Source: Candidatus Hydrogenedentota bacterium
GTDB taxonomy: Bacteria > Hydrogenedentota > Hydrogenedentia > Hydrogenedentales > GCA-2746185
DNA length: 33,198 nt
NCBI GenBank assembly: GCA_029937645.1
Contig: JAPYPO010000005.1
Span: forward strand, 1-33,198
Direction of reading: 5' to 3'
In this document: piece after piece, positions 30,427-33,144 of the stretch
How the letters are laid out: each line of letters begins with the position of its first letter
Position numbering within the stretch: the stretch's first letter is position 1
Notes under the pieces: generated by a model
Databases searched by the model: none
The model's input: the letters and a program-made list of their open reading frames with translations, nothing else
What the model was told of the DNA's origin: nothing
Made by a program: the position numbers and the translations under genes

Positions 30427-30468
30427 TTGACACCTGATTAAACGTTCAGTATACTACTGGATGAACGT
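30427..30468 (+). promoter_or_regulatory. Near-consensus sigma70 promoter with overlapping dyad, upstream of the helicase gene
   Basis: TTGACA (30427-30432), 17-nt spacer, TATACT (30450-30455). Dyad ACGTTCA (30442-30448) / TGAACGT (30462-30468) flanks the -10 box. Confidence 0.75.
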
Positions 30469-30537
30469 GGACGGAATTGTCCTGCCCGGCCTCTTTAGCC
30501 GGGACTCCGCTCATGGAAGCGCATGAGGTGTTGCGTG

Positions 30538-33144
30538 ATGAAAATGGATGGATTGATTCGCTATGGAGCGCCTGTGGAAGTCATCGGGCTGTGGAAAAAA
30601 CAGGAGAGTCAGGCCTTGCTGCCGCTGCAAGAGTTGGCCGTGAAGCGGTACGACTTATTCGGGGGCGGCAACCTTCTGATTCAGGCGCCCACCTCGTCGG
30701 GCAAGACCTTCATCGGTGAGATGGCCGCTGTGGAGACGGCGCTGCGGCGCAAGAAGGTGGTGTATTTGGTGCCGTTAAAGGCGCTGGCGGAAGAGAAGTA
30801 CCAGTCGTTTCGGGAAAAGTATGAAGCCTACGGCCTCAAAGTGATTGTGTCGTCGCGTGACCACCGAGAGTTTGATGCGGAATTGGAAAGCGGCGATTTT
30901 TCAATGGCCGTCGTGGTGTATGAAAAACTCTCGCAATTGTTGGTTCGGCGCCCGGAGCGGCTGCAAGAAATCGAGCTGATTATCGCGGATGAATTGGAGC
31001 TGCTCTCGGACCCGGAGCGCGGCGGCGGGTTGGAACTGCTGCTGACGCGCATATTGCTCTCGGGTACGCGGCTGATTGGATTGTCGGCGGTGATCGGGCA
31101 AGCGGAGAAGCTGGCCAAGTGGATGGAAGCGAAGCTGGTATTGCATGAGCAACGTCCCGTGGAGTTGCGCTACGGGGTGCTCTACAACGGGGTCTTCCGC
31201 TACCGAACCTATAACGCCTATTCGGAGGGCGAAGAAACCCTCAGCGATCAGGGCGCGGAATCATCGTGGGAAGTCTTGGCACAAAATGTCGCTTCCTTTT
31301 CGGAGGCCGGCGAAACGTGTTTAGTTTTCGTAAAGTCAAAACAGGAATCGCGGAGGGGCGCGCAAGCGCTAGCGGATTGCATCGACGGCCCTCCCGCGCG
31401 CGAGGCGATCGAGGCGCTGCGGGCCTTGGAGCCGACACGCTCGCGGGAGGGGCTGATCGATGCGCTGGAGCGGGGCGTCGGCTTCCACAACGCCGACCTG
31501 ACCCCCGACGAGCGCAAGGCCATTGAGGCAGCCTTCCGCTCTGGGGAAATCCGGGTGATGGTCTCGACGAGCACCCTCGCCGTGGGACTCAACATGCCGG
31601 CGCGCAATGTGTTCATCACGGCGGATAAATGGCGCTATGATGCGCGCTTCGGTATGCCATGGAAGGCGCCGATCATGCGCGCGGAATACGAAAATATGGG
31701 GGGCCGCGCCGGGCGCTATGGCCAAGGTCACGCGTTCGGCCGCTCGATTCTGATCGCGGACACCGCCTTCGACGCGGAAACGCTATGGCGCCGCTACATC
31801 GAAGGGGAACGCGAAGGCATCGAACCGTGTCTGTCGAAGGAACCGCTCGAAAACTATGTGCTGCAGCTGGTCGCATCGCGGTGTTGCCGGACGGAAGACG
31901 AGCTGTTAGATTTCTTGGAAAACACGCTGACGGGTGAGTGGGTGTGGCGCGAAATGTACGCCCTGGAGGAAGTCGAGCTGTTGATCCGCAGCGCGATCAA
32001 CCGCGCCGCAGATACCGGCATGGTCGCTCGGGCAGGCGAAGGAACCCTGGAGGCCACGCCGCTCGGGCGCGCCGTAGCGGCCAAGGGGATCTCGATCGCG
32101 ACCGCCTTGGAATTGGAACAGTGGATCAACGAATCGGAATCCCGGGTCTGGAGCGATCTTGACCTCATCGTCGCGGCGGCGACGACGCCGGACGGGCGTG
32201 TGCCGGCGGTGACGCTCACCTCGGAAGAATATGCGAGGGCCGCCTATGTCGATCGGCTGAGGCGGGCCGCCGAGGGCGAAGACGATTCCGCGGATGTCCC
32301 GCTCAACCGAATTCGAAAGGGGCACCTGACACCCTTCTTCGAAGAGGTCCGTGCTATAAAAATTGCGCTACTTCTCCGGCAATGGATCGATCAGCAACCG
32401 GTCCACGACTTGGAGCAAGAATTTGAAACCATGTCCGGCCAGATTCTCGCGGCCGCGCATCAAATTAGCTGGCTCACCGATGCCACTGCCTCCATCGCCA
32501 GAGCGTTGGGCGCTTCGGAAGCGTTCACGGAACGCATCCGTGTGTTGTCGCAACGCGCGCAAACCGGGCTATTGGAAGAAGCACTTCCCCTGGGCCACTT
32601 GAACGAACCCAAACTATCGCGGCCGGCCATCTGCGCGCTGGTGGGCCATGGACTCCATCGCACGCGCGCTCTCGCGACCGCGCCGACGGAGGTGTTGGCC
32701 CAATGGATCTCGAAAAAAGACGCACGCGCGCTCATCTCGTGGGCAAAGAAAAAGGTCAAGACCGAGAACAAGGGCGCGCCCCACGCAGAACGTGAAGCAA
32801 CCGCCACCCCAGTATTAATCGTAGACGACCGGGTTCCCGGCCAGATACTCCTGGATGGCGCGGTGGTTCGGTTGCAAGAAAAGCAGTATTTACTGATACA
32901 CGCGCTGGCGGAATTTCCCGGTGAGTGCGTGCCGTATGACGCGATTTATGATGCCGTTTGGGGAGACGCGATTGTCGAGAACAATCAGAGGCATTTTCAA
33001 AAGCGAAAACTACTGGATCGGATCAAGACCGCGGCTCCACACTATGCCGACCTGGTGAAAACGGTTCCGAAAAGGGGCTTCATTCTAAATCTGGCCCCGG
33101 CGCAAGTCGAACGAAAACGGGCCACTGTGTCGAGTGCCGCGTAG
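30538..33144 (+). CDS. Ski2/Hel308-like superfamily 2 helicase with C-terminal OmpR/PhoB-type winged-helix domain
   Basis: Walker A IQAPTSSGKTFIGE, Ia VYLVPLKALAEEKYQSF, motif II variant IIADELELL, III LSAVIGQ, V VMVSTSTLAVGLNMPARNVFI, VI YENMGGRAGRYGQG. HhH-like region LSRPAICALVGHGLHRTRALATAPTEVL; C-terminal ILLDGAVVRLQEKQYLLIHALAEFPGECVPYDAIYDAVWGDAIVENNQRHFQKRKLLDRIK resembles trans_reg_C. SD GAGGTG upstream of ATG 30538. Confidence 0.88.
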   Translation: MKMDGLIRYGAPVEVIGLWKKQESQALLPLQELAVKRYDLFGGGNLLIQAPTSSGKTFIGEMAAVETALRRKKVVYLVPLKALAEEKYQSFREKYEAYGLKVIVSSRDHREFDAELESGDFSMAVVVYEKLSQLLVRRPERLQEIELIIADELELLSDPERGGGLELLLTRILLSGTRLIGLSAVIGQAEKLAKWMEAKLVLHEQRPVELRYGVLYNGVFRYRTYNAYSEGEETLSDQGAESSWEVLAQNVASFSEAGETCLVFVKSKQESRRGAQALADCIDGPPAREAIEALRALEPTRSREGLIDALERGVGFHNADLTPDERKAIEAAFRSGEIRVMVSTSTLAVGLNMPARNVFITADKWRYDARFGMPWKAPIMRAEYENMGGRAGRYGQGHAFGRSILIADTAFDAETLWRRYIEGEREGIEPCLSKEPLENYVLQLVASRCCRTEDELLDFLENTLTGEWVWREMYALEEVELLIRSAINRAADTGMVARAGEGTLEATPLGRAVAAKGISIATALELEQWINESESRVWSDLDLIVAAATTPDGRVPAVTLTSEEYARAAYVDRLRRAAEGEDDSADVPLNRIRKGHLTPFFEEVRAIKIALLLRQWIDQQPVHDLEQEFETMSGQILAAAHQISWLTDATASIARALGASEAFTERIRVLSQRAQTGLLEEALPLGHLNEPKLSRPAICALVGHGLHRTRALATAPTEVLAQWISKKDARALISWAKKKVKTENKGAPHAEREATATPVLIVDDRVPGQILLDGAVVRLQEKQYLLIHALAEFPGECVPYDAIYDAVWGDAIVENNQRHFQKRKLLDRIKTAAPHYADLVKTVPKRGFILNLAPAQVERKRATVSSAA

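Follow-up and report, generated by a model that had tools for sequence, protein, structure and literature searches.

We propose that the last gene of the analysed stretch of DNA (33,198 bp, in the following called the window) very probably encodes a bacterial DNA-repair helicase of the Hel308/HELQ type, which would be repressed by LexA, released upon DNA damage and belong to the core SOS genes of Candidatus Hydrogenedentota; the proposal is based on comparisons of sequences and predicted structures. The source is a MAG of 4.8 Mb (99.8% complete) with Candidatus Hydrogenedentota as nearest relatives, of which the window is exactly one whole contig, and the 54 bp that the first-pass annotation had counted between the stop codon and the window end are correct. 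Hel308/HELQ and the Pol theta helicase have been studied in archaea and animals, and their exact pathway is still debated. In several phyla a shared LexA operator, a lexA operon or a recA operon links the bacterial Hel308-like lineage to SOS/RecA, and this link predicts a testable job for the helicase and makes Hel308-type enzymes accessible to bacterial genetics. We also describe an apparently new LexA box for Hydrogenedentota and a natural fusion of a helicase to the DNA-binding fold of transcription factors. All features are listed in Table 1; the start at ATG 30538 is consistent with the N-termini of the orthologues, and a second in-frame ATG is located at 30523.

Table 1. Promoter elements, domains and motifs of the helicase gene with their positions in the window.
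Feature	Position	Strand	Basis
-35 element TTGACA	30427..30432	+	pattern match; TTGA at same spacing in 36/37 orthologues
Predicted LexA-type (SOS) operator, CTGATTAAACGTTCAG, one mismatch to CTGAA-N6-TTCAG	30434..30449	+	motif, orthologue comparison
-10 element TATACT	30450..30455	+	pattern match, orthologue comparison
CDS, 868 aa, Hel308-like SF2 helicase with C-terminal winged helix	30538..33144	+	ORF translation
RecA1 / DEAD domain, residues 30-187	30625..31098	+	Pfam PF00270, E 1.3e-22
Motif II DELE, residues 151-154	30988..30999	+	translation, family alignment
Motif III SAV, residues 183-185	31084..31092	+	translation, family alignment
RecA2 / Helicase_C, residues 311-395, with motif VI ENMGGRAGR inside	31468..31722	+	Pfam PF00271, E 2.4e-11
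Motif IVa FHNADL, residues 316-321	31483..31500	+	counterpart of archaeal Hel308 F/YHHAGL
Hel308 domain 4 (ratchet) region, residues 600-677	32335..32568	+	Pfam PF21280 (Helicase_dom4_arc), E 7e-12
Hel308 domain 5 (helix-hairpin-helix-like), residues 690-738	32605..32751	+	aligned with C-termini of Hjm 2zj2 and Hel308 9b15
OmpR/CadC-type winged helix, residues 759-860	32812..33117	+	PF00486 in 20/20 homologues; CadC 5ju7, E 5.6e-9; AF2 topology
Predicted recognition helix of the C-terminal winged helix, residues 817-832	32986..33033	+	conservation and AF2

Promoter, predicted LexA box and SOS genes

The promoter had been overlooked in the first-pass annotation and holds the main functional information. 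The operator fills the 17-bp spacer between its -35 and -10 elements (30427-30455), and the upstream regions of 37 orthologues share the consensus TTGACA-N-CTGAA-N6-TTCAG-TATACT. In 35 of the 37 the -35 and -10 elements flank the inverted repeat at the 17-bp spacing, and CTGAA-N6-TTCAG is present within one mismatch in 34 of the 37 helicase promoters (26 exact), the other three having two mismatches. Among 387 control ORFs, 7 have such a site upstream (Fisher test against the helicase promoters, p about 1e-39). The full promoter pattern occurs once in the window and never in shuffles. Genome-wide, operator sites with at most one mismatch were not enriched (64 compared to 70 for the reversed pattern), so the specificity of the operator rests on its position and conservation. 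The 5' leader of the gene also contains a CCCGGC...GCCGGG hairpin (30485-30515), and a similar one is found in L033, a relative from the same family (G001); the fold of the 5'UTR was not significant (z -1.3) and an Rfam scan of the window gave no match.

The operator motif was defined on the helicase promoters and then tested independently on lexA genes collected by Pfam. Upstream of lexA it was found within one mismatch in 24 of 24 genomes, 21 of them exact, compared to the same 7/387 for the controls, and in the genome of the window itself an exact site is located 18 bp before the lexA start. Using the motif to search the genomes of relatives we detected sites before genes starting like lexA, dnaE2, dinB, imuA/imuB and recQ. 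From one example each, NCBIfam identified LexA (TIGR00498, 207 bits), and the RecQ family, the DNA polymerase III alpha superfamily and DinB above a curated cut-off, with ImuA and the ImuB-like protein being below the cut-off. In family f6 the first half-site reads GTGAA both before the helicase (2/2) and before lexA (4/4). The simplest reading of these sequence comparisons is that CTGAA-N6-TTCAG represents the LexA box of Hydrogenedentota. The loci L224-L260 with lexA, dnaE2, dinB, imuA, imuB and recQ form a predicted small SOS regulon, and once, in L246, a MiaB-like radical SAM gene was seen behind a CTGAA-N6-TTCAG site.

By 2021, 17 LexA motifs had been reported (PMC8565304). We found no description of CTGAA-N6-TTCAG as a LexA box in the papers searched, where the comparison with these 17 motifs was not exhaustive, and none of a Hel308-like helicase as a member of a LexA regulon in a search of mainly open literature, in which no paper mentions LexA, SOS and Hel308 together. 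Likewise, the literature searched contained no description of an SOS response in Hydrogenedentes and no paper using the phrase 'bacterial Hel308'.

Relatives of the helicase in other phyla are also associated with SOS genes or recA. In Zixibacteria, where 119 of 133 genomes carry a relative, the helicase box CTGCACAnATGTGCAG occupies the same spacer position and has a matching lexA box CTGCACAAATGAGCAG, with the spacer operator being recognised in only 6 of the best 30 loci (two of the 30 are without an upstream region). In several Zixibacteria without the spacer operator, the helicase start is immediately preceded or overlapped by the gene of a small zinc-ribbon protein (CPxCG...CxxCGW/Y), an arrangement seen in L330, L331, L337, L339 and L347. 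In Zipacnadia the helicase box CGAACAGGCGTTCG and the lexA box CGAACCGATGTTTG are of the type CGAAC-N4-GTTCG. Planctomycetota-type loci (L135, L139, L140, L145) have the helicase -4 to 100 bp behind lexA and Myxococcota-type loci (L121, L125, L126, L130, L131, L136) have it 9-11 bp behind recA. As the gene is rare in Planctomycetota (6/199 genomes) and in the Myxococcota class (5/193), these lexA and recA operons are local features of few lineages. No LexA box was recognised in the upstream region of the Binatota helicase. Shortly before its start, L114-L116 and L124 carry a long inverted repeat, AAAGAGTAAACGT...ACGTTTACTCTTT, which is not LexA-like.

Helicase fold and C-terminal winged helix

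Residues 1-740 represent a complete five-domain Hel308-like helicase consisting of RecA1, RecA2, a winged helix, the ratchet domain 4 and the helix-hairpin-helix domain 5. The AlphaFold2 (AF2) model of the protein, calculated from 48 sequences, has a mean pLDDT of 90.6, and Foldseek matches it to archaeal Hjm/Hel308 (2zj8, E 1.3e-42, TM 0.89 on the target, ~750 columns); Hel308 targets in general gave TM values of 0.86-0.90 at 25-29% identity. Archaeal Hjm/Hel308 proteins are the closest solved structures by profile and by fold, with Pol theta next in the fold search, and domain 4 (PF21280) was detected in 20 of 20 homologues. The Hel308-type NCBIfam models outscore other helicase families by far, both being below their equivalog thresholds (PRK02362 with 372 bits over residues 12-751, cut-off 887; NF040935 with 283.8 bits, cut-off 1200).

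According to Pfam, Foldseek, AF2 and the homologues, the fusion of this helicase to an OmpR/PhoB-type winged helix, which the first-pass annotation had suggested, is real and unusual, and the C-terminus quoted there is present in the 868-aa translation. In the window copy Trans_reg_C (PF00486) reaches an E-value of 8.4e-5 and 23.0 bits, just below the curated 26.2. Trans_reg_C matches all 20 homologues at E < 0.01 (best 1.7e-9), and a search of the PDB with the C-terminal profile gave the DNA-binding domains of CadC (5ju7, best, 5.6e-9), ArlR and PhoB and many other OmpR-family domains, showing that the winged helix is real although its match in the window copy is sub-threshold. AF2 agrees with the HMM and the PDB profile, as it predicts the topology b-b-b-a-a-a-b-b over residues 760-860 with a pLDDT of about 90, preceded by a linker (746-755) with a pLDDT under 50. 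The predicted recognition helix carries the invariant residues Q817 and K822 as well as a near-invariant Q821. The domain is not an ordinary Hel308 domain and is kept in every Hydrogenedentota copy with a recovered 3' end.

Outside Hydrogenedentota, Trans_reg_C is clear in the homologues from Zipacnadia (52.9 bits) and Coatesbacteria (26.2 bits on a truncated copy). The relatives from Zixibacteria, Planctomycetota and Myxococcota have a diverged C-terminal extension, for which Pfam gave no relevant match, and hhalign aligned the Zixibacteria and Planctomycetota C-termini to the Hydrogenedentota winged helix only weakly (probability 23). For Zixibacteria the top Foldseek matches of the modelled C-terminus are almost all of the OmpR type (best E 7.5e-3), making it probable that this extension is a winged helix in general terms. 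The Binatota relatives stop after domain 5 and lack the C-terminal winged helix, which the helicase family can thus do without.

From the operator and the five-domain homology we infer a model in which LexA would sit on CTGAA-N6-TTCAG between the -35 and -10 elements and block RNA polymerase until, upon DNA damage and activation of RecA, LexA cleavage allows the helicase to be expressed. Judged from the shared sites, it would be produced together with DnaE2, ImuA/B, DinB and sometimes RecQ. The enzyme would then load on single-stranded DNA at stalled or damaged forks, move 3'-5' through the ring of RecA1, RecA2 and ratchet like archaeal Hel308, and either unwind the blocking strand or remodel recombination intermediates. 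The most likely, if speculative, function of the C-terminal winged helix would be to anchor the helicase, either to a partner protein or to duplex DNA beside the fork.

A more far-reaching idea is that bacterial Hel308-like helicases of at least six candidate or named phyla form a class with ties to SOS or recA, in which an acquired winged helix of the transcription-factor type directs the enzyme either to RNA polymerase or to particular sites on the DNA, which would make it a helicase for site-directed or transcription-coupled repair; we regard this as rather doubtful. It is also unlikely that the winged helix serves as a protein-protein adaptor to RNA polymerase or a replication protein and so couples repair to transcription or to the replisome. 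OmpR-type winged helices do contact RNA polymerase in activator complexes, such complexes are among the Foldseek matches, and the flexible linker would suit a tethered adaptor, but DNA anchoring is the simpler reading.

That the winged helix reads a DNA sequence, by which the helicase would bind the promoter of its own gene or every SOS box, and would repress itself or feed back on SOS, appears improbable to us. The extreme conservation of the operator would fit such a reader, the recognition helix is among the best-conserved parts of the C-terminal domain and its Q817, Q821 and K822 could plausibly share a face, and the f6 copies combine a changed operator with a divergent protein. On the other hand, the f6 change is common to lexA, which points to LexA as the reader, and the same operator precedes lexA in 24/24 genomes and other SOS genes as well. 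With the operator being that of lexA, the promoter can be explained without the winged helix regulating its own gene. Direct repeats are the usual targets of OmpR-family domains, whereas this operator is a LexA-like inverted repeat, and the different box types of Zixibacteria and Zipacnadia are each matched to their own lexA.

Motif variants, distribution and neighbourhood

The first-pass annotation was right about DELE at motif II and SAV at motif III, both being present in the translation and the alignment, but calling them degenerate does not hold. Motif II is DEL[E/D] in Hydrogenedentota (DDID in one family) and DELQ, DEIQ or DEVQ in the relatives from other phyla, with SAV at motif III nearly throughout; judged from this alignment, DELE and SAV are lineage signatures and not signs of decay. 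Motif IVa is FHNADL or similar and thereby of the HxxDL type instead of F/YHHAGL. In archaeal Hel308, mutation of motif IVa led to hyperactive unwinding and annealing (PMC10484726). With scores under the equivalog cut-offs and divergent motifs II, III and IVa, the activity of the enzyme may differ from that of archaeal Hel308.

The gene is present in 58 of 68 Candidatus Hydrogenedentota genomes and in 36 of the 38 good ones, as identified by a search of the genome contigs with an alignment as query; a single-protein query had found nothing. In the protein tree of the helicase body, Hydrogenedentota form one clade, and the window copy groups with its own taxonomic family. L049-L052, from f6 and one f10 genus, are fast-evolving copies with ~34-36% identity and altered motifs II and III (DDID; AGA). 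Two f6 genomes (G017, G027) have retained lexA, and no helicase was found in them. The record titles of L107, L127 and L135 name Nitrospiraceae, Klebsiella pneumoniae and Pseudomonadales, while their copies resemble those of Hydrogenedentota, the Binatota type and the Planctomycetota type, respectively; these are probably mislabelled MAGs.

No conserved neighbour genes were detected among the Hydrogenedentota relatives. The largest apparent neighbour clusters were rejected, as they are antisense shadow ORFs of the helicase itself, and the genuine recurrent neighbours are lineage-local (a membrane protein in 5 genomes, a small protein in 4). In the window the genes around the helicase are mostly metabolic. 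At 2316-2894 on the minus strand the window encodes a response-regulator-like protein in reversed order, with an excisionase/MerR-like HTH followed by a receiver domain, and relatives of it are found near the helicase in L045, L047 and L048.

An anti-phage defence role, in which the helicase would be of the HamB kind (Hachiman) or close to it as the first-pass annotation had considered, is very improbable: PADLOC HamB models do match the helicase core (best 126 bits), but Hel308 models reach 372 bits, PADLOC gave no match for the 8 window neighbours scanned, no partner gene is conserved, and, whereas a defence gene would be patchy, this one is present almost everywhere in the phylum and passed on vertically. 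A search for HamA (PF08878) in the own genome gave no match, with the control being likewise silent. An inactive, degenerate helicase retained as a scaffold is hardly credible. The fourth residue of motif II is indeed not H and motif III is SAV and not SAT, but these variants are clade-wide, and the homologue alignment shows little or no variation in Walker A GK[T/S], D151 and GRAGR of motif VI.

Comparison with known systems

The protein shares its five-domain SF2 architecture with archaeal Hel308/Hjm (2zj2, 2zj8, 2p6r, 2va8) and with human HELQ and the Pol theta helicase domain. Unlike archaeal Hel308/Hjm with DExH, SAT and HHAGL, the bacterial protein has DELE/DELQ, SAV and HxxDL and adds both the C-terminal winged helix and the LexA-type operator. 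The Ski2-like SF2 helicase core is also common to Hachiman HamB (8vx9), to which the similarity is lower than to Hel308, and the gene described here is a core chromosomal one, very probably of the SOS response. With the OmpR/PhoB/CadC domains (PF00486; CadC 5ju7, ArlR 6iju, PhoB 1gxp) the winged helix has the profile and the b-b-b-a-a-a-b-b topology in common, but the known domains sit on a receiver or a membrane sensor and not on a helicase, and the recognition helix reads NQxHxQK here, unlike the usual HIxxLR pattern of the OmpR family. As in the LexA/SOS regulons of other bacteria, one operator is common to lexA, dnaE2, imuA/B, dinB and recQ.
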